Shown: one piece after another, positions 10,989-64,000 of the stretch
How the letters are laid out: every line of letters starts with the position of its first letter
How positions within the stretch are numbered: position 1 is the stretch's first letter
Source of the DNA: Citrus sinensis
Taxonomy: Eukaryota > Streptophyta > Magnoliopsida > Sapindales > Rutaceae
Direction of reading: 5' to 3'
Assembly (NCBI RefSeq): GCF_022201045.2
Contig: NC_068563.1
Location: forward strand, 868,001-932,000
DNA length: 64,000 bases
The notes under the pieces: model-generated
Database searches by the model: none
Seen by the model: only the letters and a program-made list of their open reading frames with translations
Told to the model about the DNA's origin: nothing
Translations under genes and position numbers: made by a program

Positions 10989-13167
10989 ATGGAAGAAGAT
11001 GAAGATATTGTGATCGTGGGAGCTGGAATTGCTGGCTTGACAACATCTTTGGCGCTTCACAGGTATTCACCAACTGATTGAACGTAAAGTTGTGAATTTG
11101 TGCATGCTATATCTGTAATTATATTTTGATTAGAGTTGCAGGCTGGGAATCAGGAGCTTAGTATTGGAATCATCAGAGAGCTTGAGGGTCACAGGATTTG
11201 CAATAACATTATGGACTAATGCTTGGAGGGCCTTAGATGCTGTTGGCATCAGTGATTCTCTTCGCCAACAACACATACAGCTCCAGGGGTAACTTAAAAC
11301 ATCTGATTCTACTACCAAGTTGTTCTTATCATGAATATAACCAGAACTATTGATAGTTTCTTTAATCTATTTCCTAACTGCATCTCGGAATACTGGTGCC
11401 TCACTTATCACTAGTAGTACTGATAGTTTATGATTGCTTGACGCTGACCTGAATTGATCCGATGCAGGATGGTGGTTGCTTCTTCAGTTTCTTGTCAACC
11501 TGCTTCAGAGATATCATTTAAGACCAAGGGAAATCGGTAAATTATCTCATAATGTTATAATGCCTCATCATTTCATCCCCCACATTACCATTTTTCTAGA
11601 TTACTTTCTTTGTATGCGAATGAGTATTAATAATGTAGTATGAGATGCTTAGTGGAGGCCATGAAGTTCGATCTGTCAAAAGGAGCTTGTTGATGGAAGC
11701 GCTTGAAAGGGAACTTCCAAGTGGCACCATAAGGTACTCCTCCAAGGTAGTTTCGGTTGAGGAATCTGGATTATTTAAGCTTGTGTATCTAGCTGATGGA
11801 GCCGTTTTTAAAACTAAGGTAAAATAACAGCTAAACTTATATATTTTCAAAATATTCAGGCTACTCAATGGTATAATTATGTGACAGCGGCAATATTGGC
11901 AACCTATGTGATGGATGAATTGCAAAAACATGTAAATGAGCTTGATAATATGTTTATATCATGTTGATAATGGAATATGATCCTTAAACTCTGTGCTGCT
12001 CTAATTTGTGAGCTGCTGCTCGTCCAGTTTTCAGAACTTTATCATTTGCATTGCTTTGTGATGAAAGGTCTTGATTGGCTGTGATGGAGTGAACTCAGTG
12101 GTGGCAAAATGGCTCGGGTTCAAGAAACCGGCTTTTGCAGGAAGATCTGACATAAGGGGTTGCACAGATTTCAAGTTGAGACACGGCCTTGAGCCGAAAT
12201 TCCAGCAGTTCCTTGGGAAAGGTTTTCGATATGGTTTTCTCCCTTGCAATGATCAAACTGTTTATTGGTTTTTCAACTGGTGTCCGTCCAACCAAGGTAA
12301 TTATCCCTTCCTCTCAACCTTGATTAGTTCAGCTATTCAGGTATGGGAAATGTATCAGTAGATATGGTTATGCAGCATATCATCAGATCAGCGAGTACGA
12401 AACCTTGAAGCTTAGATTACCTTACAAAAGTTTATGGTAACATAAGTTATTCAAGTAAAATTTCATTGTTCAAGAGGAACATGGCAACTCTAGATTCGCC
12501 AAAGTCATATCATCAACAATCCTTACTGAGTTTCTTGGTTGTCTGCATAATCATTAATGTTACGTTCACTTCTAGGTTTGTCACTTTCTGATCAGCATTT
12601 GGCAAAATTTCACTGATTGTAGATAAAGAGCTAGAGGGCAACCCAGATAAGACGAAGCAGTTTGTGTTGAGCAAGTGTCATGATTTACCCGAGCAAGTAA
12701 AGGCTATTGTAGAAAACACTCCGTTAGATAGTATATTAGTATCTCCACTACGATACCGATATCCATGGGAAGTTCTATGGGGAAATATCAGCAAAGGAAA
12801 TGTGTGTGTAGCTGGAGATGCATTTCACCCCATGACACCGGACATAGGTCAAGGTGGGTGTGCGGCTTTGGAAGATGGCATTATTTTAGCCAGGTGTATC
12901 GCTGAAGCCTCAACTGAAAAACCAAGCGGAGTGACTAAAGACAAAGCTGGTGAGGACAAGGAGGAATTTAAGAGAAATGAAATTGGACTGAAAAGATATG
13001 CAACAGAGAGGAGATGGAGAAGCTGTGAGCTCATCAGCATGGCTTATATTGTTGGCTATGATGGGAAGATAATAAACTTCCTGAGAGATAAAATCTTTTC
13101 AGTTCTTCTGGGTAGGCTGATGATGAAGATACTTGAGTTTGATTGTGGAAAGCTCTGCATTTCTTGA
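10989..13167 (+). CDS. FAD-dependent monooxygenase, MO1/CTF2-like (tandem copy 1)
   Basis: Six exons (10989-11062, 11142-11288, 11468-11536, 11653-11818, 12068-12296, 12623-13167) join without a break to give 409 residues. Residues 7-17 ([11 protein letters not shown]) are the Rossmann FAD-binding motif. The second FAD motif is [17 protein letters not shown] around residues 291-307, followed by CAALEDG, and IGCDGVNS is the DG motif of class A flavoprotein monooxygenases. This is the plant family of MO1/MO2 and CTF2, related to salicylate hydroxylase and zeaxanthin epoxidase. The substrate is unknown. No transit peptide is apparent. The protein is close to the second copy at 18099, with identical exon lengths (74, 147, 69, 166, 229, 545), so the two arose by tandem duplication. 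No lesion is seen. Confidence 0.88.
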
Positions 13168-17049: not shown

Positions 17050-18098
17050 TAAGTGGCTTCATAGTTATAATGTTTACAAGGGAGGCTTTTACTAGAACAG
17101 GGTGAAGCTATTAACATTAATTGAATCATTTGCTAAATTCATCTAACCTTGTCCTTCTTTTATTTGGCGTTATTGGGAAACTTTTCCTGCAAGTGCTCTT
17201 ACGCGTCACCCCTTACGTAATAACATTAAATCTTTAAGTGTTCTAAAAACAAACATGGCTTAAATACGTAGACTATATTGGAAATAAATATCATCCCGTT
17301 AGCCGCTATTAAATTGTACTTTTAACCTTTTTGGCATAATTTTATATATTTTATTTTAAATAAAAACTCATTCCATCTTTATATTTTAAGATTAGTATCT
17401 ATTTAATTTTTATATTTTTTAAAATATCTCAAAACATCATTACTCTTAAATTATTGACATCTCTATTGTTAATTTTTTTTTGTTTCTTTTGACTTATTTT
17501 TATAATATTATTCTCTTACAATAATATTTTTTTTATAAAATTAATAAAAAAATTAAATTATCAATTTAACCTAAAAATAAAATAAAAACAAATATATATA
17601 TATATATATATATTAATTAATTTTTGTGAAAGCTTACATTTGTCCCAAAAAAATTATTGTAAAAATAATTAAATTACCTTTTTTTGGACAACATTAAAAA
17701 AAATTAATATATTAACTCCTCAGCAGTGTTCCAAAAAAGTAACATATATTAATTTTTTTTCTATTTTATTTTTTAAGATTAAATTGATAATTAATTTTTT
17801 CTTTTTACTAATGCTTAAAAAAATTATCGTAAGAGGATAATATTATAAAAATAAAACTAAAAGTAACAAAAAGTAAAAGAAAATATACTAATAATTTAAT
17901 ATCGGAGATATTTTAAGATATTTTAAAAATTTTAGGAATTAAACAAATATTAACCTCAAGATAGGAGAACTAAACTGATATTTTACCATATATTAAAGCC
18001 TCCTCCTTATCCTTCTTGCCATGCATCAATTCCAGAGCCGATCACTTTACGCTCTAGCTAGAACTTGAACTCACAGAAAATAGAAAGCCCAAGATATC

Positions 18099-19983
18099 AT
18101 GGAATCAGTTGAAGATATTGTGATTGTGGGAGCTGGAATTGCTGGCCTGACAACCTCTTTGGGACTTTACAGGTTTAAAACAAAAAAGTAAAATAATAAC
18201 CAATAGAACATAAAGTGTTCCTGTGTGCGTAATTTGTCCAATTAATTAATTGGTGTTGCTGCAGGCTGGGAATCAGAAGCATGGTACTGGAGTCGTCAGA
18301 GAGTTTGAGGGTCACAGGATTTGCATTCACAGTGTGGACTAATGCCTGGAAGGCCTTGGATGCTGTCGGCATCGGTAATTCACTTCGCCAACAACATCAA
18401 CAGCTCAGAAGGTAACTCAAAGCGAATTCTGCTTTGCCAATTTCTAGCTTTTGTGGATGTTAGTGAAGTTTGTAGCTTGAAAAATAGAAATGGAACCACA
18501 AAGCTAAATATGTGTTAATTAAGTTAGTAGCAAGGCCTGCTAGGACATTGTGAAGTAATTAAATATGGCACCGCATAAATATGCTTGCTGGAAACTGACC
18601 TGAACAGATGTGATGCAGCATAGTTGCTACCCCCACCATATCGGGGAAACCCTCTTCTGAGAGGTCATTGAAGGTCCAAGGAAAATAGTAAGTTATCTCA
18701 TTGATGTCACATGTACTGCCTCATAATTTGATCTCATATTAGCAAGCTGCCAAACTAAGCAAAAGTTTGGTGGGGCAATTTTGTTTGTTACTATCGATGC
18801 TGTTGTGGCTGTGATCATGTTTAGCGGAGAACATGAAATGCGATGTGTGAGAAGGAAGTTGTTACTAGAAACACTTGCAAAAGAGCTCCCAAGTGGTACT
18901 ATCAGGTACTCATCACAGGTGGTTTCAATTGAGGAATCAGGACATTTTAAGCTGTTGCATCTAGCTGATGGAACCATCCTCAAGACCAAGGTAAAAAGCT
19001 GAAGCTAAACTTCTATTTGATGTGACAGTTTCCCATTCTTATGCCTTTATCATTGATCACTTTGTGAATGAAAGGTGTTGATTGGGTGTGATGGAGTCAA
19101 CTCCATAGTTGCAAAATGGCTCGGCTTCAAGAATCCAGCTTTTGTAGGAAGATCTGCCATAAGGGGCTATTCAGATTTCAAGGGCAGTCATGGCTTTGAG
19201 CCCAACTTCCTGCAGTTCTTTGGCAAAGGTCTAAGATCCGGTTTCATCCCTTGTGATGATCAGACTATTTATTGGTTCTTCACTTGGACTTCCTCCAGCC
19301 AAGGTAATTATTAAATATATATGTCATCTATGAATGCACATTTTCAATGTAAAGTTATCACATTATGTTTGATTACTACTAAAGTTAGGCCATTTTCTCA
19401 CGTTCTAATCTGTTACTAAAACTTTATTACAAGAGTAGATAAAGAGCTAGAGGATCACTCAGCTGAGTTGAAGCAGTTTGTGTTAGGAAAGTTGCATGAT
19501 TTACCTGCACAAGTTAAGGCTGTTATAGAAAAAACTCCATTGGATAGCATTATATCATCGCGCCTACAATACAGACAGCCACAGGAGGTGCTGTGGGGAA
19601 ATATAAGCAGAGGCAGCGTGTGTGTAGCTGGAGATGCACTTCATCCAATGACACCAGACATTGGCCAAGGTGGCTGTGCAGCCTTGGAAGATGGCATTGT
19701 TTTGGCTAGATGTATCAATGAAGCCTTAAAGACTAAACAGGGAGTTGGAGAAGAAGATGAGGAGGGATTTAATAAGAGGGTTGAAATGGGACTGAAAAGA
19801 TATGCTAAAGAAAGGAGATGGAGATGCTTCGAGCTCATCAGTATAGCTTATCTGGTTGGTTCCATACAACAAAGTGATGGGAAGATATTGAACTTTTTGA
19901 GAGATAAAATCTTGGCTTCATTCCTAGTTGGGTTGCTCTTAAAGAAGGCTGATTTTGACTGTGGGAACCTCACCTCTACTTAA
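18099..19983 (+). CDS. FAD-dependent monooxygenase, MO1/CTF2-like (tandem copy 2)
   Basis: Exons 18099-18172, 18265-18411, 18619-18687, 18825-18990, 19075-19303 and 19439-19983 give 409 residues, the same length and exon sizes as copy 1. The start [20 protein letters not shown] carries the Rossmann FAD motif; [16 protein letters not shown] is the DG motif region; [17 protein letters not shown] is the second FAD motif (DAL here, DAF in copy 1). The open frame is unbroken. The copies differ most in the third exon and in the acidic stretch after the second FAD motif ([19 protein letters not shown] here). A recent-to-middle-aged tandem duplication with possible substrate divergence is the simplest reading. 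Confidence 0.88.
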
Positions 19984-42121: not shown

Positions 42122-44448
42122 TTAATTATGATGAAGATGGTGGTGATGGGTACTCATATGGTGACTGTGAAGGTGCTGCTCATGGTGATGATAATTAATC
42201 CCATTATTGACCGTACTATCTGAAGCTTTAGCCACATTCTCAATCCACTCTCTTGCCGGGTTTCTCGTGAGCTCCAGCAATGAGTCCCTTACATGATCAG
42301 CTTGAACCATCTCATTATCTCTTTTCTGCCAACGAAAAGAACAAAATTACAATAAAAATCAATGTTCTTATTCATTTATTGATCTTTCAGTTGGCTTCAA
42401 GAAGTTTACCTTCACATTGAAAACATTAGACACAAGTCCTGTGCGGCTAGTTACGTTCGCATTTGTCACTTCCAGTCCCAAAGAATTCAAAGCCTCCATT
42501 AATCTCACAAACCCACCAGGCTTATGCTCACAAAACACCTTAATAAAGAACTCATTCCCATTTAATTGCGCCACTTCAACTTGCACCTACAATATTCAAT
42601 TAAATCCCATTTCTGCATTGAATTAATTATCTCAAGTTCAATTTTCAAGAGGTAGAGTTGAAGAAATAATGTAACCTCCATTTGTTGTCCTTTATCAATA
42701 GTATTTTCCGAATCCTGATCCTGTTTACGACCATTGCCCATATGACACTGCTTAGGTTCAGTTTTGGGACCAAAATTCGTCCCATTTTGGGTTAAACTCT
42801 CTGATTTCACAGCGTTGTGGTTATTAACACTGATGCCCATATCATCATTCTTTGCAGCTCCATCATCATCCGAGTTCTCCTCTAGCTCCTCTTTTAGCTC
42901 TTTCTCTTGCTTTTGCAACTGCTTCACATATTCAATTGCATCCACAAGAATGGTAGCCCTATCCAGCTGCAAACAAATAAGAGTTAAAAAAACATTATAG
43001 AATCCAAGACTTGTGACACAAGTAACAAAGATAAAAAGAATGTTAATTACTTTAGTAATAATGGGAACCAAAGCTCGAAGTGCATAAAGTCTATCATTGA
43101 GCTTCTTCCTCCTCTTCCTCTCAGCCACAAGATTCTTAGACTGAGGCTCCTTCCCATTTCTCCGCGGCCTGTACTTTACGTCATCTTCCAGATCATCAAT
43201 CTGATCACTACAATCCGAGATAGAATCTGACCGTCCATTGTTATTATTATTATTATTCTGATCCGGTTTGATCAAGTCCTTATTAAGATCATCATAATTC
43301 CCTTGTTGCAGCTCCTTGTTTCCCATATTAGGCTCCATAAATTGCATGTTCATGTTTGATGCATTATCCATCTCTTGAATTCCATTTTGATGAGTTGAAT
43401 CATCACGCGACCCTTCAAAGAACACATCGTTTCTGTGACGTTTAACATTTTTAGAGCTGCTGCTGTAACCAAATTGCTGCAAGAAATTCACTGGAGAAGT
43501 ACAACCACTGCAGATGCGAATTCGATCAACGGAGAGCTCATATGGCACATCACTGTTTTCCAATGCCATGGCGTGCACATTAACTGAGGAACTAGCATTA
43601 TCTAAATAGCAGCTTGTGTTCATATTCATAGGATCCTGCTCCATTGATATGTTACATTGAGCTATGATAAAATCAATCACATGTGGTTCTTCACTTACCT
43701 GTAACATAAATAAGTTGATAATAATAAATATTTTATGCATCTCAATTGTAATAAACTAAATTGAGTTAAATAATTCAAAAGCTAAAATTGCATACTTCTT
43801 TGGTAGCAAATAGCTCAATCAATCCTCCCATTATTGGAATCAAAACCCTAGTCCAAAGTGTTTCCTCCATAACTTCTAAATCAGCGCTATTAGAGAAGTT
43901 TAGCCATCGAGGTTGGTTTGATATCAAACTTTGCGCGTAAATCCTGACGATAAATAATAATTAATTAAACCCAGTTGATCAGATTAAAATGTTATTAATA
44001 AAAGCAGAATATTGAATGAGTGCATGAATGCGCGTACCCGGAGTCAAGAGGCATTGAAGAAGGAAGTTGAGAAAGAAGCTCACAAGATTTGGTTCTTGGA
44101 TGTGGAAATATAACATCCCTGCAAGGAAGAAATGGAGAAACTGGAAAGTGAAGTTCGTCTCCATCATCATTTTGTGTGCCCTCAATTCCAGCACAGCAAC
44201 AATCTATCCATGCGATAAACCTAAGGAAAGAAATATATATATATAGTTTCAAATTATAACATCGAGATAAAAATTAGAAGTCGACGGCATGGGAGAAATT
44301 TATTAATTAACTAAAAAAGAGAAGTACTGCTAAGTTTTTTACTAATTAACCTTTGATCATCACTCAATTTCCAAAGAACGCAGTAGTCCCAGCCTTTCAG
44401 GCCCACTAGTGGCCTCAGTCTATCCATTAGGGTTTGAACAACTGTCAT
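42122..44448 (-). CDS. AMS: ABORTED MICROSPORES-like bHLH transcription factor
   Basis: Seven exons (44351-44448, 44038-44220, 43796-43943, 43051-43698, 42676-42966, 42410-42586, 42122-42325) join in frame to 582 residues. The N-terminal MYC-like domain starts [20 protein letters not shown]; the bHLH is [20 protein letters not shown] with [19 protein letters not shown] across an exon border; the ACT-like C-terminal domain is [16 protein letters not shown] with [20 protein letters not shown]. The tail is very His-rich ([12 protein letters not shown]), as in Arabidopsis AMS (571 residues). AMS acts in the tapetum and controls pollen wall and lipid genes with MYB80 and bHLH partners; loss gives male sterility. 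Start is the ATG at 44448 after an acceptor that ends a 5' UTR intron; the open frame extends upstream, but that part looks like intron. No lesion seen. Confidence 0.92.

Positions 44449-50917: not shown

Positions 50918-51000
<83 letters not shown>
50918..51000. repeat. (AAT)n microsatellite, about 27 repeats
   Basis: A nearly pure trinucleotide run of more than 80 bases. It lies a few hundred bases left of the large MULE. Confidence 0.97.
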
Positions 51001-51882
51001 CCTATTTCTGCCGATTTTATTAAATAAAAAATTATTTTTCTAGGCTTAATCTACCATCTGCGTAGTGATTCAAATCCTCCACATCCATTAATTACGGAGA
51101 GATTTTCTTCCTAATTATTAAAAGATAGAGATATGATTCGTTCAAGGCCCGGATAGCCAAACTACACCTGAAGAGCTATCTAGGAGAAACCCCAACATAT
51201 TTCCAATGTAATTATCACTGTATTGTAGTGTAATATTCAAAAATGTTGTACACGTGATCAAATTATTATTTAATTCTTGCTAAAAGCTCCTTGATTATTA
51301 TAAATTCTCATTCGGTAAATTTTGTTGATGACTAAATCAATCAAAAGTTAATAGGTTTCGAGACTTTTCAGTCCATTCCGGTTGATTCACTTGCCATATG
51401 CATGTTACTTAGAGTCCAATAGATTTTGGGAAATTTTATAAATTAGCCATTAAAATTTTGCATTTTTCACTTTTAACCCCACTAACTTATTTCTATCAAT
51501 ATTAGCCAAACAACAAACTTTTGGACCATAATACCCTTGCAATCTCACCCAAAGCTCACCAAAGCTTGAACTCACCTACACTTCTCACCAAACGGAAGCA
51601 CCATAGAGAGCCAAATCGGAGACCATCATCGGCGGCAATCTCACCGGAATCCCGTTCAGCAACACTAATTCCACCAAAATCACGTATAATAGCAATCAAA
51701 ATCTCCAAGATAACAGTTGAAGTTCAAAAACCCTAGGTTAGCAATTTCAAACACATGCTTTATATTGTTCTTGTGTTGTGTTGTGATGATGTTTGTGGTG
51801 GTTGGTGGTCTATTGTCGGACTGTGTTGGAGGCAATACGTTGCAATGGCTGTTGACCAATTTGTGAAAATTCAAATTTTTTG

Positions 51883-52140
51883 TGCGACAGGGTCCCGTCG
51901 CACAAAGTTTTGTGCGACAGGTTCCCGTCGCACCAAATTTTGTGCGACTGCCTTTCTGTCGCACAAAAAATCTGATTACACAATCTGAAATTTTGTGCGA
52001 CAGGTTCCCGTCGCACCAAATTTTGTGCGACTGCCTTTCTGTCGCACAAAAAAATCTGATTACACTATCTGAAATTTTGTGCGACAGGTTCCCGTCGCAC
52101 CAAATTTTGTGCAACAGATGCTGTCGCACAAAAAAATCAT
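51883..52140. repeat. Left subterminal repeats of the MULE
   Basis: The word TTTTGTGCGACAGGTTCCCG starts near 51909, 51992 and 52077, a period of 83 then 85 bp. Each unit holds inverted halves (GTGCGACAGG and CCCGTCGCAC, or GTGCGACTGC and CTGTCGCAC). It is the same kind of unit as at the right end. Confidence 0.85.
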
Positions 52141-52299
52141 ATTACACAAAATTTAGGTTATTTTCTGGAGGTCATAATTACGGCTAAATAAATTCATTTT
52201 TTTGTGTATAATATATCATTTCAACGCTTGCAACGAAACAAATCAAACCCACAATGTGTAACCACATTTGTTATATTTTTTGTATATTTTGTAGATTTA

Positions 52300-54945
52300 A
52301 TGGATTCAGTTGTGCTTCAACTGTGTTACGACGGTTGGTGGGAGACGTTGGCGGATGGGAGTATGGAGTACGTGAATGGCAATAATACAGCCTTTCTAAT
52401 TCGAAAAGACTGTACATTTGATCAGTTTCTGGCAAGAGTTTATGATGTGTTACAGATAAATCGTAATGAATACAATATCACCATGAAGACAACTTTGAGG
52501 TCTAGTAATACAATGTATCGTACATGTTCACTGCCTATGGACATATTTAACGATGAAATAGTCAAGGTTGTGTTACATATGGCCTCTGATGTGGTAAATT
52601 ACGGATGCATTCCTATATTTGTGACCACATCTTCTCGAGTTGATTACCAAGATCTTGAGCCACCTGTAGAAACTGAAACTTCTTTTAGAGCAAATGTCTC
52701 TGTCCCTGATAGTGAAGAAGAGGTATTACCACAGACACTGTCTTTACAACAACGTTACTCTCCACTCCACGGCTACAATGACACTATTAATGACAATGGC
52801 ATTACCCTAGCGGATGTTGAAGCAGAGGCATTACCACAGACACTGTCATTAGAGCAACGTTACTCTCCATTCTACAATAATGAATTTCGCAGTAATGATG
52901 ATCCTATTGACGACATCGGCAACACAGCAGTAGATAATGTTTGTATGGAACCATATAATAATACAACGGACAATCATTTCAATAGTTCAGTTTGTGATGG
53001 AGGCGTTGGTCCTTCTCATATTCCTACTAATGTTGATGATGATGATCAGAATAGTATTCCTATTAATAACATTGCCAGTCAACCTATTCCTTCAGTGCCA
53101 CGTTCGAGAAGGAGAACAACAGTTGACCACCTCGCACAACTTGCTCCAGTTTTACCTTCAAACTTAGCTGCTCCTAACTTGGTCAGAAATTATAATTATG
53201 ATGATATTAGTGTGGGTAAGTTGTTTGTTGCCAAGAATGAGTTAATACTACAACTGCGTAAAGTTGCCTTGAGGGGTAAATTTGATTTCAGGATCACACG
53301 GTCCACAACAACACGTTTCGAGGCCCAGTGTTCTTCGGAATTATGTAAATGGCGTATTCGAGCAACAAGAGTTTCGAATGAGCAGAATGTTCCATGGTTA
53401 GTGAGAAGAGTTGACAACGTACACACTTGTTGTAATGAGGTATTGGCTGGTGGTGTTCATCAAGTAAGGAGTCGGGTTGTTGGTCATATTATTGCGGACA
53501 AGTTCATCCAAGAAAAACGAATATATACTCCAAATGACATCAGAGCAGACATCCAGCAGGAATACGGTGTCCAATTAACATATCAGCAAGCATATCGAGC
53601 CAAAGAAGTTGGCCTTGAAATAGTTCGAGGCAACCCTGCAGAATCATATAACTTACTTCCTAAATACTCTCATGTTTTGACCAAAGCAAATGAAGGTACA
53701 GTTACTCACCTGCGGCGAGATGGAAATGATAATTTCTTATACTATTTTGTAGCTATTGGCTCTTCTATCAAGGGTTTCATGCAGTGCATGAGGCCAGTGA
53801 TTGCTGTGGATGGTACTCATCTAAAGGGGTTATACCGTGGAACTATGTTTGTTGCGACCTGCCTGGATGGAAACAACCAATTGTATCCGTTAGCCATTGG
53901 GGTTATGGATTCGGAAAACAATGATGCTTGGGAATGGTTTATGACGAAATTACATGGAGTAATTGGTGATATGTCGGAGTTGGTATTTATCTCAGACCGA
54001 TGCACCGCGATCAAGAGAGCCGTTTTAAAGGTATTTCGCTCAGCTGCCCATGGCGTTTGTTTTTACCATGTCAAAGGTAACGTTAAGTCAAAATTCAAGA
54101 TGTCAAAAGCTCTTTGGGATGAATTTGAGCCTGCCTTCATAAACGCAGCGAAAACATATGGACACGAAGAATTTAAAAAATAATTAGAGGGGTTGTGGCA
54201 ACTCCACGCGGGTGCAGCTGACTATTTAGAGAATAATGTTGGCACATGTAATTGGGCAAGGTCTGAGTTCAAAGGTAGAAGGTACAGTATTCTAACCACC
54301 AACATTGCAGAGAGTGTGAATTCATTACTGAGGGAACCGAGGAAATTTCCTATAACTCATCTTGTTGATCACTTTAGGAAAACATTGCAGCAATGGTTTT
54401 ATGATAGGAAAATTACGGCTGAGTCGATGAGTACTCGTCTAACAACGTGGGCAGACGAAATAGTCTCTGATAGGAGAACTTTGGCTGAAAGAATGACCGT
54501 TCGTCCTGTGGCTCAGTATCGATTTCATGTTTTGGTTGGTGGTATTAAAGAAGGGATAGTTGACATTCGTGAGAAGACTTGCTCCTGTAGAGTGTTCCAA
54601 CTTGATCAGCTTGTTTGTGCACATGCAATTGCTGCTTGCATAACCGTGCGCGTGGATTACATAAGTCTTTGTTCCGAATTTTACACTCAGGAATCATTAG
54701 TGACGGCTTATGCACAACCAGTAGAGCCTGTTGGCGACATGGCAGATTGGGAGGTTCCTGAGGAAATTCGAGCAATGAAAGTTAACCCACCAATAGAAGC
54801 ACCACTGCCCGGCCGTCGTCCGGAGCTCAGAATACCCTCTGTTGGTGAGGATGTTGACAGGAGAACTATAAGATGTGGCCGGTGCAACGAAGTGGGTCAT
54901 AACCGAAAAAAGTGCAAAAATCCCATTGCATCGACACGAAGCTAA
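52300..54945 (+). CDS. MULE transposase (mudrA type), one in-frame stop
   Basis: The frame opens at the ATG at 52300, straight after a TTGTAG acceptor-like site, and runs for 882 codons to the TAG-free stop at 54945, broken only by TAA at 54181-54183 (codon 628). The upstream ATG at 52204 is in frame but reads low-complexity. Parts in order: an N-terminal module (LCYDGWWETLADGSMEYV), an acidic low-complexity middle, the MudR DNA-binding domain (VAKNELILQLRKVALRGKFD), and the MULE transposase core with D504 (IAVDGTHLKG) and D566 (FISDRCTAIKRA). A likely catalytic Glu (E671, NIAESVNSLL) lies past the stop, followed by the SWIM zinc finger (CSCRVFQ, CAHAIAAC) and a CCHC knuckle (CGRCNEVGHNRKKC). 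A truncated product would lack all of these last parts. The transposase is the enzyme that would cut and paste the element. Confidence 0.93.
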
Positions 54946-55151
54946 TTGTATCGTTTTAAATTGTTATGTATTTTGAGATCTGATTTTTATTTATTGCACA
55001 ATTATATATAACAACCTATTTAATTTCTATTATATTGCAAATTTTTTATTTCAATTATATGTAAAAAAAAAGTTTTGTACACACCAATAATAATTATAAA
55101 TACAATCGTCTAAAATCCAATTTCATCATTATATATCACTGCCACAATATC
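54946..55151. other. Convergent spacer between mudrA and the Ulp1 gene (copy 1)
   Basis: Short AT-rich stretch where the two transposon genes meet tail to tail. Both polyadenylation sites should be here. Confidence 0.6.
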
Positions 55152-58100
55152 CTAAAGGCCGATATCACCATTAAATATGTCTACAGCAATTTTCTTCCTA
55201 AAGTATTGCCCGTGGCCACTAGTAAAATTAAGTCTTAGCCCAAACATTAAATACATCGTGATCATCAACATAAAAACGCCGCAATCGCCACTACCAGGCT
55301 CTTGTTGCGGCACACCCTTACATATTTTGACATTCCAAGGGTTGGCATTCCGCAAGTCATGTCGGACGTTGTAAAATCCGACATCTTCTAACCATCGAGG
55401 GAAGACGACTTCAAGTGGCTTGAACTTATCCTTGTACGTTTTATCATCACGAACTGCCACCAACGAGTCATAAATCCACACATTTTTCTTGCGAAGGTCG
55501 ACTCGACCTACTATCCAATGATCGCCGCCCAGATTCATGGGAATGAAAACCTACATACATTAATTAATGCAAGTTAATTGTTATGTTTAAGATATTAAAA
55601 AAAAAATAAACCATCTTGAATTGCGTAACTATTCTAACCATATCGACGTCTGAGAAACGTTTCGACATGATTTCTTCTCGTCCATCAATATAACTATTAA
55701 AGTTGTAGCTATATTGTAATGAATTAAGGTCACAGTCACCATCGTTCCATAATTGCTTCAAAAAGACCTAGAAGATATATTCAAAGAAAAATAACAGGAG
55801 AGTATCAATATCAACATGCTATTACAAGATAAGAAAATGAGAGGTTAATTACAAGTTCTGTAAGATCATTACCCAAAAAAACGTATCTGTATGCGTGACA
55901 CGTTGAGACATGGCATTTGGATACTGTCTCTGTTTTTCACTTATCAATCGCAAGTACTGATGGATGTGCTGTAGCATAATATAAACATGTTGGTTTAAAA
56001 TAGAAATAGTAGATGAGACGTATAAGAAAAAAACATTTAAAAAAGCTAACCTCATCCCCCAACCATCCAAGTGCATCGTGGCCCAACAGTATTTCAAAAA
56101 ATTTATGCGATTGTCGAATAGTGCGATCCACTGTTATTGCGCCAGCAAACCACTGATCGAACTCATCGAATCCTCTTGGATCCTCCAATCCTCTAAGTGG
56201 GTTTATATCGACATTGGTTCTTTCATCGATATCACGATCCATTATTTGGAGTGTAGGCGCAGGCCTAATGTTCCATACTTTCTTGAAAGGAGGAATCATG
56301 TACGGACTATCAAAAACATATGAGGGCCGGTAGGGACGTCCAAACTTACTTATGCATGGCGGCGCCTCCGTCAAGATTTGCACGCTATCACCACTTACTT
56401 CCCCGTACAAACTGTATAATGACATGGGAGTCTGATCGTTGTTGCCACCAACATCAGTATATACTCCTCGGTCTCCCGGAGTCTGTCATTTAAAATAAGA
56501 TAAATATATTAAACTAATGTCAGATTAAAATATCAAATAACAAACATAAAATGCTAAACTACCCTACCATATACGAGCGTCCAGTCGGAGAAGTATCGTA
56601 TCCACGCTTGGACGTACCATCATTATATGAATGAATGAACCCCATCACATCTTGTCTAAACTCCCTTAATTCTGACTTCAGCGCAGAAATGGAGCTATCA
56701 ATTTTGTCCATCCGTCGAATGACATAATCGAAGGACAACTTTGTCCTAGACTGGTATCAGGGTAGACAAATATAACAACATAGTGTTAAAATGATTTATT
56801 AATTTATATTTGTGCACCAGAGATGATTATTAAGAAAAATATAACCTCACGATCCTTTGTGTTGTCAGAATCATAGTCCCGGTCGTCCTGGTCAGCTGGA
56901 GCATGCTCGTCGCGGTCGTTGTGGTCAGATGGAGCATGCTCGTTATGGTCGTCGTGGTCAGATGGAGCATGTTCATCGCGGTCAGATGGAGCATGCTCAT
57001 CGCGGTCATCCTGGTTAGCTGGAGCATGCTCATCGTCAATAGGGTTCTGCTCCGGTACCTTCATTCGAATGAGCGGCGCATTGCCTATAAATTGATGCTG
57101 CACATGGTACAAAATAATGAATAAATAATTAGTAACATTGTCGATATTTGATAATATACATAACTTTTTACTACTCCATGCCACTTACATTACGAACCCA
57201 TATCGGGATACGTGGCACGTAATCCTTCACAGACTTCCAATAATTTGTAATTTCCTCATTTGCATCTGCCTGGAGGGTTTGCATAACATTCCCCTGTCAT
57301 TTGATTACCAAATTTGAAGTTAGAAAATCTTTTTAGTACTTAACATTTTTATTGTTATTTAAATATATATAATACTTACAACACGAGTGTTATCGTTGAA
57401 AAACGAATGCACTGCATCATAAGTTATTTTCGAAGAAACAAATGCCTTCCACTTTAAGATGCGGGGAATATGATTGTTTATCTTTACGGCCCACTGTGAT
57501 GGTATCCCCTCGATCACTTCGAAAAGCCAAGCCTACAACAAACAAAGTTAAAAAACCACATAAGTTAATTTGGTATAAATATACTACTAATGAACTCTAA
57601 TATTATTTTTTTTTTTTTACCAACTCACCTGAACCCCATGACTGAACCCATAAATATTGTATTTCTCAATATTATGAGAAGGATCTTTCAAACGCTCCAT
57701 CTTAAATTTGTTGGCCTTCTGGTTCAATGCATTGTCTAAACTGTCGTATATTATTTCCCACGATAAACGACCCCATGGACGACTTCGAAAGTGGTCTATA
57801 TCGTCAACATGATTCATTAGCTGAAAGTCAGCTTGACTATGATCCTTTCTCCCCTTCAGTACCCTATCCGCAAAGTAATACAACGCGATTTTCAAGGCAT
57901 CAGTGTCGTCCATGGCACGAAATTTCAAAGCGGAAAATCTAGCATCCAATTGCTTGAGAGTCAAGTCCTTAAACCGACCACCGAAGTACTTATTAAGCAA
58001 CCTATGTTGCGTCTTCAAATTTTTTGGTTCGATGTTCGGACCATTGGAAAGCCCCGTAATGAGGCACCATTCTCCAATTGATAAATGAACTAAGTGCTCT

Positions 58101-58405
58101 CCAATTTGAAACCATAATTGATTTTTATTAGTTTTTTTATGTGCCACTTGCCTAAGCAATAGGTTGTGAAATATAACACCACTGAAATTATAACTACCCA
58201 AGTCCAGGAAGTGCCCAAAAACATCACTTCTAAACAATGACAATTGTTTGCGCGTTAGCTTACACTGGATAGCTGCGATGACTTTTTTAAATTTTGACGT
58301 CTCTGAAATACGACCCGGGAAATGATCATCAAAATATAACTTCATCACGCCCGGCTCCTTCCTAGGTTCAGGCGGATTGCGCTTTGCCAACTTAGTTTTC
58401 GCCAT
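55152..58405 (-). CDS. DUF1985 plus Ulp1 (C48) protease gene of the MULE, copy 1, intact
   Basis: Nine exons on the minus strand (57629-58405, 57380-57532, 57189-57293, 56846-57097, 56568-56750, 56051-56482, 55873-55968, 55612-55767, 55152-55550) join in frame to 850 residues with GT-AG borders. The first exon is the DUF1985 domain (FKKVIAAIQCKLTRKQLSLF, LHxLLLRQVAHK-like text, IGEWCLITGLSNG). Exon 4 holds an acidic repeat (DEHAPSDRDEHAPSDH). The last exon has the SUMO-protease triad: H729 (GGDHWIVG), D746 (WIYDS) and C808 (GSGDCGVF). Such proteins are carried by Kaonashi-type MULEs and are thought to counter host SUMO-dependent silencing, though this is not proven. Frame and triad are complete, so this copy may be active. 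Confidence 0.92.
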
Positions 58406-58757
58406 CTACCTGAAACAATTGAAATTTTATTCATTATTGTGTTATTTATAGAATAATAATATTAATAATATAAAATAAATAAGGTATCTACAAAGTAAAA
58501 ACGGCCTTGGGTGTAATCTATATTTTTATGCGACAATCTATTGCTGCATTTTTTTATCACACACAATCTGAATTTTTGTGCGATGAGTGCCCGTCGCACA
58601 AATATTTTTGCGACGGCCACTTATCGCACAAAAAAATAGTCTTTTCTTTCAGCAACATGCTTGAATTTAAAGCCGACGGCCACCCGTCGCACAAACTTTG
58701 GTGCAAGGGGCACCGGTTGTACAAAAATTAAGATCAAATACTCTTGAAAAAAAATCT
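58406..58757. promoter_or_regulatory. Promoter region of the Ulp1 gene, copy 1
   Basis: Short upstream stretch between the DUF1985 start and the array, with further GTGCGAC/GTCGCAC words (58577-58635, 58685-58700). The mirrored arm carries the same stretch at 59793-60145, so the two Ulp1 genes are divergent, each with its own copy. Confidence 0.5.
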
Positions 58758-59230
58758 GAATTTTTGTGCGACGGGTGCCCATCGCACAAAAATTTGTGCG
58801 ACGGGCACCCGTCGCACAAAAATTCAGAACGTGTGTTTTGAGTTTTTGTGCGACGGGCACACTGTCGCACAAAAATGTTTGCGACGGGCACCCGTCGCAC
58901 AAAAATTCAGAACGTGTGTTGTGATTTTTTGTGCGACGGGCACCCTGTCGCACAAAAATGTTTGCGACGGCCACCGGTCGCACAAAAATTCAGAACGTAC
59001 GTGGAGAGTTATTGTGCGACGGGCGCCCTGTCGCACAAAAATGTTTGCGACGGGCACCCGTCGCACAAAAATTCAGAACGTGTGTTGTGAGTTTTTGTGC
59101 GACGGGCACCCTGTCGCACAAAAATGTTTGCGACGGGAACCCGTCGCACAAAAATTCAGAACGTGTGTTGTGAGTTTTTGTGCGACGGGCACACTGTCGC
59201 ACAAAATTTTTTGCGATAGGCACTTTTGTG
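58758..59230. repeat. Right subterminal array, 83-bp tandem repeats
   Basis: The word TTCAGAAC starts at 58823, 58906, 58989, 59072 and 59155, exactly 83 bp apart, so there are at least five units. Each unit contains the palindrome GTGCGACGGGCACCCGTCGC or a close variant, plus a second half-site GTTTGCGACGGG. CpG-rich. It lies wholly in the loop of the large inverted repeat, so it is present once. Confidence 0.95.
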
Positions 59231-59239
59231 CGACGGACA

Positions 59240-59410
59240 AACTCGCGCAATGGGAATGGGTGCAGCAAGCAACGCGCGAGCTCGCGCGAGCTGCAGAAAG
59301 CAACGCGCGAGCTCGCGCGAGCTGCAGTACCCATCGCGCGATCTCGCGCGAGCTCGCGCGTTGCTTGCTGCAGCTCGCGCGATGGGTGCTGCACCCATGG
59401 CGCTGCAGCC
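59240..59410. repeat. GC-rich inverted repeat (hairpin) beside the right end
   Basis: GCAGCAAGCAACGCGCGAGC at about 59262 recurs in inverse form near 59352-59380 (GCTCGCGCGTTGCTTGCTGC), enclosing CGCGCGAGCTCGCGCGAGC words. This is an unusually CpG-dense hairpin block in an otherwise AT-rich region. Confidence 0.85.
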
Positions 59411-59783
59411 CAATCCCACTGCACAATCACGCACCCTTCGCACAAAAAATCTCCGTTACAAAACAACACACTCCCAAAATCCACAACCACCATTACAAGC
59501 ACTACCACCACCATTGTTATTCTCAAATTTCATTCTTAATTAATCAAATATAAATAAAATGGCTTACTTATGTTGATGGTGTGTGAAGCCGTCGCCGGTG
59601 ATGGTTGAAGCTGCCGCCGTTTTGCCTCTTGGAGATCTCACGTGAAAGAGGTGGAGTTGGGGGAGAGATGGAGAGGGCACTTTGGTCTTGAAATTTTAGT
59701 TTTGGCTAATATTGATAGAAATAAGTTAGTGGGGTTAAAAGTGAAAAATGCAAAATTTTAATGGCTATTTGTGTAAATTCCCC

Positions 59784-59792
59784 ATAGATTTT
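59784..59792. repeat. Right target duplication of MULE copy 1
   Basis: ATAGATTTT, identical to 51419-51427. The inverted second copy begins at the very next base (CAGATTTTTTTTC, 59793). Confidence 0.92.
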
Positions 59793-60145
59793 CAGATTTT
59801 TTTTCAAGAGTATTTGATCTTAATTTTTGTACAACCGGTGCCCCTTGCACCAAAGTTTGTGCGACGGGTGGCCGTCGGCTTTAAATTCAAGCATGTTGCT
59901 GAAAGAAAAGACTATTTTTTTGTGCGATAAGTGGCCGTCGCAAAAATATTTGTGCGACGGGCACTCATCGCACAAAAATTCAGATTGTGTGTGATAAAAA
60001 AATGCAGCAATAGATTGTCGCATAAAAATATAGATTACACCCAAGGCCGTTTTTACTTTGTAGATACCTTATTTATTTTATATTATTAATATTATTATTC
60101 TATAAATAACACAATAATGAATAAAATTTCAATTGTTTCAGGTAG

Positions 60146-63100
60146 ATGGCGAAAACTAAGTTGGCAAAGCGCAATCCGCCTGAACCTAGGAAGGAGCCGG
60201 GCGTGATGAAGTTATATTTTGATGATCATTTCCCGGGTCGTATTTCAGAGACGTCAAAATTTAAAAAAGTCATCGCAGCTATCCAGTATAAGCTAACGCG
60301 CAAACAATTGTCATTGTTTAGAAGTGATGTTTTTGGGCACTTCCTGGACTTGGGTAGTTATAATTTCAGTGGTGTTATATTTCACAACCTATTGCTTAGG
60401 CAAGTGGCACATAAAAAAACTAATAAAAATCAATTATGGTTTCAAATTGGAGAGCACTTAGTTCGTTTATCAATTGGAGAATGGTGCCTCATTACGGGGC
60501 TTTCCAATGGTCCGAACATCGAACCAAAAAATTTGAAGACGCAACATAGGTTGCTTAATAAGTACTTCGGTGGTCGGTTTAAGGACTTGACTCTCAAGCA
60601 ATTGGATGCTAGATTTTCCGCTTTGAAATTTCGTGCCATGGACGACACTGATGCCTTGAAAATCGCGTTGTATTACTTTGCGGATAGGGTACTGAAGGGG
60701 AGAAAGGATCATAGTCAAGCTGACTTTCAGCTAATGAATCATGTTGACGATATAGACCACTTTCGAAGTCGTCCATGGGGTCGTTTATCGTGGGAAATAA
60801 TATACGACAGTTTAGACAATGCATTGAACCAGAAGGCCAACAAATTTAAGATGGAGCGTTTGAAAGATCCTTCTCATAATATTGAGAAATACAATATTTA
60901 TGGGTTCAGTCATGGGGTTCAGGTGAGTGGGTAAAAAAAAAAAATAATATTAGAGTTCATTAGTAGTATATTTATACCAAATTAACTTATGTGGTTTTTT
61001 AACTTTGTTTGTTGTAGGCTTGGCTTTTCGAAGTGATCGAGGGGATACCATCACAGTGGGCCGTAAAGATAAACAATCATATTCCCCGCATCTTAAAGTG
61101 GAAGGCATTTGTTTCTTCGAAAATAACTTATGATGCAGTGCATTCGTTTTTCAACGATAACACTCGTGTTGTAAGTATTATATATATTTAAACAACAATA
61201 AAAATGTTAAGTACTAAAAAGATTTTCTAACTTCAAATTTGGTAATCAAATGACAGGGGAATGTTATGCAAACCCTCCAGGCAGATGCAAATGAGGAAAT
61301 TACAAATTATTGGAAGTCTGTGAAGGATTACGTGCCACGTATCCCGATATGGGTTCGTAATGTAAGTGGCATGGAGTAGTAAAAAGTTATGTATATTATC
61401 AAATATCGACAATGTTACTAATTATTTATTCATTATTTTGTACCATGTGCAGCATCAATTTATAGGCAATGCGCCGCTCATTCGAATGAAGGTACCGGAG
61501 CAGAACCCTATTGACGATGAGCATGCTCCAGCTAACCAGGATGACCGCGATGAGCATGCTCCATCTGACCGCGATGAACATGCTCCATCTGACCATGACG
61601 ACCATAACGAGCATGCTCCATCTGACCACAACGACCGCGACGAGCATGCTCCAGCTGACCAGGACGACCGGGACTATGATTCTGACAACACAAAGGATCG
61701 TGAGGTTATATTTTTCTTAATAATCATCTCTGTTGCACAAATATAAATTAATAAATCATTTTAACACTATGTTGTTATATTTGTCTACCCTGATACCAGT
61801 CTAGGACAAAGTTGTCCTTCGATTATGTCATTCGACGGATGGACAAAATTGATAGCTCCATTTCTGCGCTGAAGTCAGAATTAAGGGAGTTTAGACAAGA
61901 TGTGATGGGGTTCATTCATTCATATAATGATGGTACGTCCAAGCGTGGATACGATACTTCTCCGACTGGACGCTCGTATATGGTAGGGTAGTTTAGCATT
62001 TTATGTTTGTTATTTGATATTTTAATCTGACATTAGTTTAATATATTTATCTTATTTTAAATGACAGACTCCGGGAGACCGAGGAGTATATACTGATGTT
62101 GGTGGCAACAACGATCAGACTCCCATGTCATTATACAGTTTGTACGGGGAAGTAAGTGGTGATAGCGTGCAAATCTTGACGGAGGCGCCGCCATGCATAA
62201 GTAAGTTTGGACGTCCCTACCGGCCCTCATATGTTTTTGATAGTCCGTACATGATTCCTCCTTTCAAGAAAGTAAGGAACATTAGGCCTGCGCCTACACT
62301 CCAAATAATGGATCGTGATATCGATGAAAGAACCAATGTCGATATAAACCCACTTAGAGGATTGGAGGATCCAAGAGGATTCGATGAGTTCGATCAGTGG
62401 TTTGCTGGCGCAATAACAGTGGATCGTACTATTCGACAATCGCATAAATTTTTTGAAATACTGTTGGGCCACGATGCACTTGGATGGTTGGGGGATGAGG
62501 TTAGCTTTTTTAAATGTTTTTTTCTTATACGTCTCATCTACTATTTCTATTTTAAACCAACATGTTTATATTATGCTACAGCACATCCATCAGTACTTGC
62601 GATTGATAAGTGAAAAACAGAGATAGTATCCAAATGCCATGTCTCAACGTGTCACGCATACAGATACGTTTTTTTGGGTAATGATCTTACAGAACTTGTA
62701 ATTAACCTCTCATTTTCTTATCTTGTAATAGCATGTTGATATTGATACTCTCCTGTTATTTTTCTTTGAATATATCTTCTAGGTCTTTTTGAAGCAATTA
62801 TGGAACGATGGTGACTGTGACCTTAATTCATTACAATATAGCTACAACTTTAATAGTTATATTGATGGACGAGAAGAAATCATGTCGAAACGTTTCTCAG
62901 ACGTCGATATGGTTAGAATAGTTACGCAATTCAAGATGGTTTATTTTTTTTTTAATATCTTAAACATAACAATTAACTTGCATTAATTAATGTATGTAGG
63001 TTTTCATTCCCGTGAATCTGGGCGGCGATCATTGGATAGTAGGTCGAGTCGACCTTCGCAAGAAAAATGTGTGGATTTATGACTCGTTGGTGGCAGTTCG

Positions 63101-63398
63101 TGATGATAAAACGTACAAGGATAAGTTCAAGCCACTTGAAGTCGTCTTCCCTCGATGGTTAGAAGATGTCGGATTTTACAACGTCCGACATGACTTGCGG
63201 AATGCCAACCCTTGGAATGTCAAAATATGTAAGGGTGTGCCGCAACAAGAGCCTGGTAGTGGCGATTGCGGCGTTTTTATGTTGATGATCACGATGTATT
63301 TAATGTTTGGGCTAAGACTTAATTTTACTAGTGGCCACGGGCAATACTTTAGGAAGAAAATTGCTGTAGACATATTTAATGGTGATATCGGCCTTTAG
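60146..63398 (+). pseudogene. DUF1985 plus Ulp1 gene, copy 2, with a premature stop
   Basis: Same nine-exon plan (60146-60922, 61018-61170, 61257-61361, 61453-61704, 61800-61982, 62068-62499, 62582-62677, 62783-62938, 63000-63398). In exon 7 the CAG of copy 1 is TAG here (62624-62626, codon 649), so the product would end before the protease domain. Other differences: TAT for TGT (IQYK), CGT for CAT (LVRL), AGG for TGG (KKVRN), and GTG for ATG at the Met before NLGGDH. The rest is intact. The stop is a C to T change in a CAG context, the kind seen when methylated C decays. Confidence 0.9.
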
Positions 63399-63604
63399 GA
63401 TATTGTGGCAGTGATATATAATGATGAAATTGGATTTTAGACGATTGTATTTATAATTATTATTGGTGTGTACAAAACTTTTTTTTTACATATAATTGAA
63501 ATAAAAAATTTGCAATATAATAGAAATTAAATAGGTTGTTATATATAATTGTGCAATAAATAAAAATCAGATCTCAAAATACATAACAATTTAAAACGAT
63601 ACAA

Positions 63605-64000
63605 TTAGCTTCGTGTCGATGCAATGGGATTTTTGCACTTTTTTCGGTTATGACCCACTTCGTTGCACCGGCCACATCTTATAGTTCTCCTGTCAACATC
63701 CTCACCAACAGAGGGTATTCTGAGCTCCGGACGACGGCCGGGCAGTGGTGCTTCTATTGGTGGGTTAACTTTCATTGCTCGAATTTCCTCAGGAACCTCC
63801 CAATCTGCCATGTCGCCAACAGGCTCTACTGGTTGTGCATAAGCCGTCACTAATGATTCCTGAGTGTAAAATTCGGAACAAAGACTTATGTAATCCACGC
63901 GCACGGTTATGCAAGCAGCAATTGCATGTGCACAAACAAGCTGATCAAGTTGGAACACTCTACAGGAGCAAGTCTTCTCACGAATGTCAACTATCCCTTC
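63605..64000 (-). CDS. MULE transposase, copy 2, C-terminal part (runs off the window)
   Basis: The minus-strand frame ends with the stop at 63605 and covers the SWIM finger (CSCRVFQLDQL) and the CCHC knuckle (CGRCNEVGHNRKKC), the same as the end of copy 1. The site matching the TAA of copy 1 would be near 64367-64369, outside the window, so I cannot say whether this copy has that stop. Confidence 0.88.
   Translation of the reverse strand, partial: EGIVDIREKTCSCRVFQLDQLVCAHAIAACITVRVDYISLCSEFYTQESLVTAYAQPVEPVGDMADWEVPEEIRAMKVNPPIEAPLPGRRPELRIPSVGEDVDRRTIRCGRCNEVGHNRKKCKNPIASTRS

Follow-up and report, generated by a model that had tools for sequence, protein, structure and literature searches.

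A large inverted MULE pair in sweet orange with the outline of maize Mu killer: a candidate silencing locus

Mu killer (Muk) is the best-known natural trigger of plant transposon silencing, and the question raised here is whether the genome of sweet orange (Citrus sinensis) contains a locus that could act in the same way. The locus lies in a window, the whole stretch of 64,000 nucleotides analysed (C8:868001-932000, contig NC_068563.1, of the 299.7-Mb, 11-contig assembly GCF_022201045.2), and consists of two copies, A and B, of a Mutator-like element (MULE) in inverted orientation; the right arm was followed past the end of the window. An earlier note, made from the letters of the window, had described a complete MULE at 51428-59783 with a perfect target site duplication (TSD), followed straight after its right TSD by an inverted and partly deleted second copy, and had proposed a hairpin silencing locus resembling Muk. 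Positions given without a contig are those of the window.

The palindrome and its two MULE copies

Within the window, BLASTN aligned 54550-58760 with 64000-59791 in inverted orientation (99.74% over 4211 bp, 10 mismatches and 1 gap), and a separate repeat search recovered the same two arm pieces, with 1030 bp separating their inner ends. In the parent genome the full arms, 51428-58760 and 59791-67115, are 7.33 kb long and 99.7% alike, and make up a palindrome of 15.7 kb. Of 7323 sites compared between them, 15 are substituted; B has in addition lost 7 bp in one deletion, and the alignment contains a single 1-bp gap. The arms of about 7.3 kb, the loop of about 1.03 kb and the approximately ten differences inside the window that the earlier note had given are thus borne out. 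The outer end had been predicted at 67122, 7 bp away from where the sequence past the window puts it, namely at 67115 (C8:935115), the exact left terminus of the MULE, inverted. BLAST carried the alignment on to 67127; the last 12 bases are flanking DNA with 9 of 12 matching, do not belong to the arm, and were dropped as proof of an inverted duplication. Given the length and identity of the arms, a palindrome arising by chance would be out of the question.

Copy A is complete, as had been claimed, and its TSD, matching at 9 of 9 positions, shows that it entered by normal transposition. The same is found around the C2, C3 and C9 copies of the family, with 8/9 for C1 and only 5/9 for C6; among 180 mispaired pairs used as a control, none reached 9/9 and two reached 8/9. 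The terminal repeats of A can be taken as 85 bp at 94% or as 131 bp at 82%. A domain scan placed PF10551, PF03108 and PF04434 in mudrA, and the DUF1985 and C48 peptidase open reading frames (ORFs) are likely exons of one gene. The inverted, partly deleted second copy also stands where it had been described: the A/B junction is the end of A's right TSD, and B starts at 59791 (59793 without the 2 bp, TT, that are common to both). B is truncated from the start of the 83-bp tandem array onward and is missing only the right 1.02 kb, and the whole of mudrA is contained in both arms, inverted.

Table 1. Features of the palindrome in the window, and inverted left-left structures outside it
Feature	Position	Strand	Evidence
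Copy A, complete Kaonashi-like MULE, 8356 bp	51428..59783	+	TSD 9/9, terminal repeats at both ends, mudrA/C48/DUF1985 domains
Left TSD of A, ATAGATTTT	51419..51427	.	
Right TSD of A, ATAGATTTT; last 2 bp (TT) common to B's inner end	59784..59792	.	
Left (mudrA-side) terminal repeat of A	51428..51557	+	51427-51557 vs 59654-59784, 131 bp, 82% complementary
Right terminal repeat of A	59654..59783	-	
mudrA of A: MuDR DNA-binding, MULE and SWIM domains; nonsense change 54181-54183	52300..54945	+	
C48 (ULP1-type) peptidase ORF in A, likely exon	55152..55538	-	PF02902, E 4e-20
DUF1985 ORF in A, likely peptidase-gene exon	57617..58405	-	PF09331, E 6.4e-18
Left arm (left terminus, mudrA, peptidase ORFs)	51428..58760	+	99.7% inverted match to 59791-67115
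83-bp tandem array with short palindromes, at B's truncation point	58757..59223	.	repeat searches
Spacer (loop), 1030 bp: 83-bp tandem repeats, GC-rich palindromes, A's right terminal repeat, most of A's TSD	58761..59790	.	repeat searches
Right arm, copy B, inverted sister MULE without the right 1.02 kb	59791..64000, on to 67115	-	BLASTN, parent genome
DUF1985 ORF in B, inverted copy of 57617-58405	60146..60934	+	
C48 peptidase ORF in B, inverted copy of 55152-55538	63012..63398	+	
3' end of B mudrA, continuing outside the window to 66243; 7-bp deletion opposite 54271-54277	63605..64000	-	
Left-left structure	C2:28252043-28254236		
Left-left structure	C8:6690154-6692638		
Left-left structure	C4:4758546-4762803		
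Left-left structure	C2:30548158-30551848		
Left-left structure	C2:1865426-1868409		
Left-left structure	C6:13324400-13327275		
Left-left structure	C3:7996095-7998900		
Left-left structure	C2:3981706-3982564		

The comparison of seven close copies extended over the arm, or for C3 and C6 over a part of it. Between A and B, 15/7323 sites differ (0.205%), between A and the C2 copy 31/7329 (0.42%), and between A and the C3 copy 0.48% of 2513 sites; the C6, C9 and C1 copies are 1.4-1.9% from A. A and B were grouped with an ultrafast bootstrap of 97 and have six derived sites in common, together with seven or eight private changes in A and five or six in B. On these comparisons, A is nearer to B than to any other of the seven copies, and B to A, and the grouping and the common derived sites indicate that their divergence is younger than the split of their common ancestor from the C2 lineage. 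None of the 15 changes falls in the first 2.3 kb of the arms, and a gene-conversion patch was considered for this part; the comparison with C9 also has fewer changes there, leaving the case weak.

A silencing role weighed against an inert pair

If a transcript crosses the spacer, the palindrome may, as an inverted repeat, give rise to small RNAs directed against its own MULE family, a reading that we hold tentatively and consider plausible, about as likely as that of an inert pair. Such a transcript would begin at an outer terminus or at a cryptic promoter in either arm, run over the spacer and fold on itself over up to 7.3 kb, plant Dicer-like enzymes would cut the hairpin into RNAs of 21-24 nt, and these would direct mRNA decay and DNA methylation at related copies. 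Small RNAs against the peptidase ORFs would come first, as these lie nearest the spacer. With a start at the outer terminus, a run of 8.7 kb is needed to pair the first peptidase sequence and one of 12.2 kb to pair any mudrA; wherever the start, mudrA can stand on both sides only in molecules of 8.7 kb or longer, and a start near the spacer could pair peptidase sequence within 1.8 kb.

Relatives on which a silencer could act do exist, since an uninterrupted mudrA frame of 881 aa is kept in the C2 and C6 copies (not in those of C9 and C1). Exact matches to the 24-mers of arm A (n=7308) number 6695 (92%) in the C2 copy, 4759 in C9 and 4742 in C1 (~65% each), 3459 in C6 and 2173 in C3, and only 5/7308 in the one copy compared from a sister MULE family (see below), so any silencing in trans would be expected to reach other members of the family and scarcely anything outside it.

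Several observations weigh against a silencing role. The mudrA gene lies 3.8-6.5 kb from the spacer, unlike in Muk, and the complete right end of A inside the spacer could block or deflect read-through transcription. No gene placed so as to be read into the palindrome was recognised: the nearest domain-bearing ORF on the left (42562-43740, HLH) is on the minus strand and 7.7 kb away, and on the right the ORFs scanned at C8:937801-947000 (2/13) are retroelement parts, in an ORF list that misses spliced genes. The hairpin model is contested even for Muk, because the RNAs made by plants undergoing Muk silencing were chiefly short and antisense, and longer hairpins had at most a possible share, according to the available part of that study (PMC3440606).

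Among the alternatives, the one that survives best, although it too falls somewhat short of probable, is that the locus is an inert pair, i.e. two abutting sister MULEs whose transposase is dead and which ordinary RNA-directed DNA methylation silences as it would a lone copy, no special hairpin RNA being made. Both mudrA frames are indeed broken, by a nonsense change at 54181 in A (derived; B, C2, C9 and C1 are without it) and by the 7-bp deletion in B (also derived; A, C2, C9 and C1 are without it), and the outer flank of B resembles an ordinary TSD. Of 14 changes that could be polarised along the branches leading to A and to B, 10 are from C:G to T:A (6/13 for the C2 branch), which is expected of any methylated transposon; CG/CHG transitions were rejected as a sign of silencing, being expected of any transposon. 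Set against an inert pair are the coincidence of an independent insertion exactly at the broken end of B (0-2 bp) and the frequency, in the same MULE family, of other structures with inverted left ends.

The GC-rich nested palindromes (GCGCGAGCTC...) at 59240-59390 in the spacer may impede replication or transcription.

Origin of the pair and left-left derivatives elsewhere

We lean towards an order in which B would have inserted first, into a dispersed repeat, with TGAAGCTAT as its TSD, and would then have lost its right end, A landing afterwards at the broken end. The outer flank of B, TGAAGCTATTGG, is the end of a dispersed repeat, in which GAG stands directly before a TGAAGC-like start in 9/12 copies (copies chosen for reading); the right flank of the locus begins exactly at TGAAG, and TTAGAGT lies 13-19 bases ahead of A in the left flank. 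The 9 bp outside B resemble a TSD belonging to it, for which the start of the repeat is suggestive only. Of the second copy described in the earlier note, the inverted and partly deleted state stands; a one-step inverted duplication of A finds no support in this flank. The order with B first predicts an empty site, TTAGAGTGAAGCTATTGG, at the repeat, and the two orders predict opposite states of the other haplotype. When the joined flanks were used to search for an empty site, the left flank was found nowhere else among the scored candidates and the right flank recurred as the dispersed repeat. Two matches crossing the joint, by 9 and 15 bases (C4:8053304 and C5:37895160), were rejected as empty sites; they have gaps of 3-4 bases and different upstream DNA. 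Searched as a pattern, the left flank matched exactly at its own locus alone, and a further 51 sites matched it with one or two mismatches, against 19 for the control.

This order has its difficulties. That A sits exactly at the broken end of B is a coincidence under it, and the inner TSD of B is not visible. The flanks CCAATAGATTTT and CCAATAGCTTCA (read inverted) match at 9/12 positions with a 7-bp run, a level reached by 0.03% of random pairs, which favours a template switch or is chance. One copy of the repeat (L057) has AGTCCAAT upstream, as in the left flank of A; the match, of eight bases, would fit, weakly, with the left flank and the repeat having once been neighbours.

The pair might instead have arisen in one step, synthesis from the 3' end of A's right TSD switching template at 58758, copying out through the left terminus and joining the right flank by short homology, in which case B would be a true inverted duplication of A. 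This we regard as rather unlikely, though it would account for the junction exactly at the border of TSD and flank with 2 bp in common, for the inverted match of the flanks and for A and B being closest relatives, and template switching with a median microhomology of 2 bp is described for animal elements with terminal inverted repeats (TIRs) in the accessible part of PMC8277862. However, copying outward should leave the left flank of A, AAAATCTATTGG, beside B, and the dispersed-repeat end TGAAGCTATTGG stands there instead.

The recurrence in this family of derivatives with two inverted left ends that were once mobile goes beyond the earlier note, and is more surprising than the comparison with a silencing locus. 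Of 162 candidates from a left-terminus search, 40 were scored, giving 39 matches of at least 200 bits, and 36 were kept after three internal-only matches had been dropped (in one of those kept, the right arm at C3:7998081, the match begins only at base 226 of the query). Sixteen of these 36 left ends form eight convergent inverted pairs within 20 kb, the pair in the window included. A ninth structure, C2:3981706, stands outside the eight pairs, its second inverted arm being only 138 bp. When the whole units of the eight structures outside the window (Table 1) were examined for TSDs, five had 9/9, one 8/9, one 2/9 in register (7/8 when shifted by one base), and one had no recognisable right end; two of the five 9/9 TSDs, ATATATATA and GATTTTTTT, are simple sequence and less informative. 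C3:7996095 was left out of the mispaired-control TSD run and of the 24-mer comparison. As six of the eight have TSDs of 8-9 of 9 bp, such left-left derivatives have moved as units.

Other element sequence lies between the inverted left ends in seven of the eight outside structures. All seven contain a segment from between element positions 3.0 and 4.6 kb, covering parts of the mudrA tail, of the C48 ORF or of both, and longer 5' parts of mudrA are present in C4:4758546, C2:30548158 and C2:1865426. At least four junction types can be distinguished, represented by C2:28252043; by C8:6690154, C6:13324400 and C3:7996095; by C4:4758546 and C2:30548158; and by C2:1865426. In the inverted arms themselves, mudrA coding sequence reaches a maximum of ~136 bp at C8:6690154, C6:13324400 and C3:7996095 and is absent from the others. 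The ends are 78-90% like A in the left-terminus search, and the C2 copy contains 9-46% of their arm 24-mers (for the ninth structure, 1%).

It is improbable that the palindrome is a nascent composite transposon, in which the outer left termini move the whole 15.7 kb or deleted forms of it and from which the small left-left elements arose. The TSDs at six other loci and the mudrA or peptidase fragments between the inverted ends of seven of the eight structures are consistent with this idea. However, the 15.7-kb unit (51428-67115) has no direct TSD (3/9), indicating that it has not moved as such, and its transposition as a composite was rejected; moreover, the divergence of the other left-left ends from A, together with the number of junction types, shows that they do not stem from the locus in the window.

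A second MULE family, 81% identical to A over mudrA, accounts for most matches of the mudrA search below the close copies, with many copies scoring alike (one lies at C9:8435700-8443700). Of 553 candidate left ends in this sister family, the best 40 were scored, and none of these converges on a partner end within 20 kb. One short match in convergent orientation, of terminal-repeat size (130 bp at 78%, C6:14373736 beside C6:14374485), was not counted, as with the 138-bp arm of C2:3981706. Fisher's test of 0/40 sister-family ends against 16/36 of the window family gave p = 7e-7, a value for the best 40 only, in which related elements are not independent draws. It is conceivable, although we think it quite doubtful, that the window family limits itself, its mobile Muk-shaped derivatives and the large palindrome supplying small RNAs and keeping copies few, while the sister family spread.

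Large palindromes are a known class of artefact, but a misjoin or a fold-back read is very improbable here: the arms carry mutations of their own, 15 substitutions and a 7-bp deletion separating them, the junction lies outside shared sequence apart from 2 bp, and B runs to an exact terminus beyond which the flank is unrelated.

In the accessible part of a survey of sweet orange, 31 of 40 spontaneous structural variants detected stem from three MULEs (PMC9832951), and the sister family is a candidate for one of these hyperactive MULEs. Since most of the detected variants come from so few elements, it matters in practice what holds citrus MULEs in check. Sweet orange, a clonally propagated crop with a sequenced genome, a large Muk-shaped palindrome, several moved relatives of like shape, potential targets in which mudrA is uninterrupted and a sister family that seems to lack such derivatives, offers a setting in which to ask how often plants gain silencing triggers and whether they act.

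The neighbourhood of the palindrome has further features. An AAT repeat run at 50918-51000, just left of it, is likely a length-variable marker, and 0.8 kb outside its right end is a MITE-like (miniature inverted-repeat transposable element) near-perfect palindrome of 112 bases, 106/112 self-complementary (C8:935894-936005, 67894-68005 in the numbering of the window). The retroelement parts further right, at C8:937801-947000, are the reverse transcriptase and integrase core of a long terminal repeat (LTR) retroelement. Direct-repeat blocks of 75-81% identity at 10986-13055 and 18096-19859 are probably two diverged copies of one longer element.

Comparison with known systems

The combination of mudrA with a C48 peptidase gene in opposite orientation is that of the Kaonashi (KI) or ULP1-bearing MULEs, as far as these are described in PMC2528002 and PMC6117577. 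Kaonashi elements are described as non-TIR in Arabidopsis, from which A, with its terminal repeats of 85 bp at 94% or 131 bp at 82%, may depart, and the palindrome is no part of the family description. Extra copies of termini in moved, TSD-flanked elements, as in the left-left derivatives, are known from the MULEs with multiple long TIRs of several plants (Ferguson and Jiang 2012, PMC3310237). Those, in the part of that account available, mostly have tandem TIRs at each end, whereas here one type of end is inverted on both sides with mudrA or peptidase fragments between. Within Citrus, there is a likeness to CitMule of the clementine 'Arrufatina', a MULE whose features include 'dissimilar' TSDs in inverted orientation and a rearranged flank (PMC4334395). 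Unlike the sweet orange locus, CitMule is a single inverted element of 6.9 kb with a 5-exon transcript and FAR1 and SWIM domains, is linked to a 2-Mb deletion, and has no palindrome reported in the accessible part of its description. No report of a Muk-like locus in Citrus was found among the papers listed in searches of the open-licence PMC literature, and such a report may exist.

Muk, which arose once, in one maize line, gives rise to a 2.4-kb hairpin RNA that is processed to small interfering RNAs (PMC2563033, available part). Both of its TIRs are from the mudrA side and it contains an inverted duplication of ~1.3 kb of mudrA, the two parts meeting at the inversion point (PMC3440606, likewise). 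The resemblance proposed in the earlier note holds in outline: the sweet orange palindrome has the mudrA-side terminus at each of its outer ends (the left terminus of the element at 51428 and again, inverted, at 67115), mudrA lies in the inverted duplicate, the structure is partly deleted, and relatives with uninterrupted mudrA are found elsewhere in the genome. It does not extend to the inversion point, where mudrA is not found; 3.8 kb with the peptidase ORFs separates mudrA from the spacer, and the right end of A is inside the spacer. The arms are 7.3 kb long here, against TIR plus ~1.3 kb of mudrA in Muk, and one of the two copies is complete. Muk is a derivative of maize MuDR, whereas this is a sweet orange MULE with a C48 peptidase. 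Seven of the left-left elements also share with Muk a mudrA-side end at either side, an internal deletion and a similar size (2.2-4.3 kb), and differ from it in that their inverted arms are mostly terminus and untranslated sequence. The suggestion that they are closer to Muk than the window locus was dropped, as they are nearer in size and deletion but hold at most ~136 bp of mudrA coding sequence in their arms.

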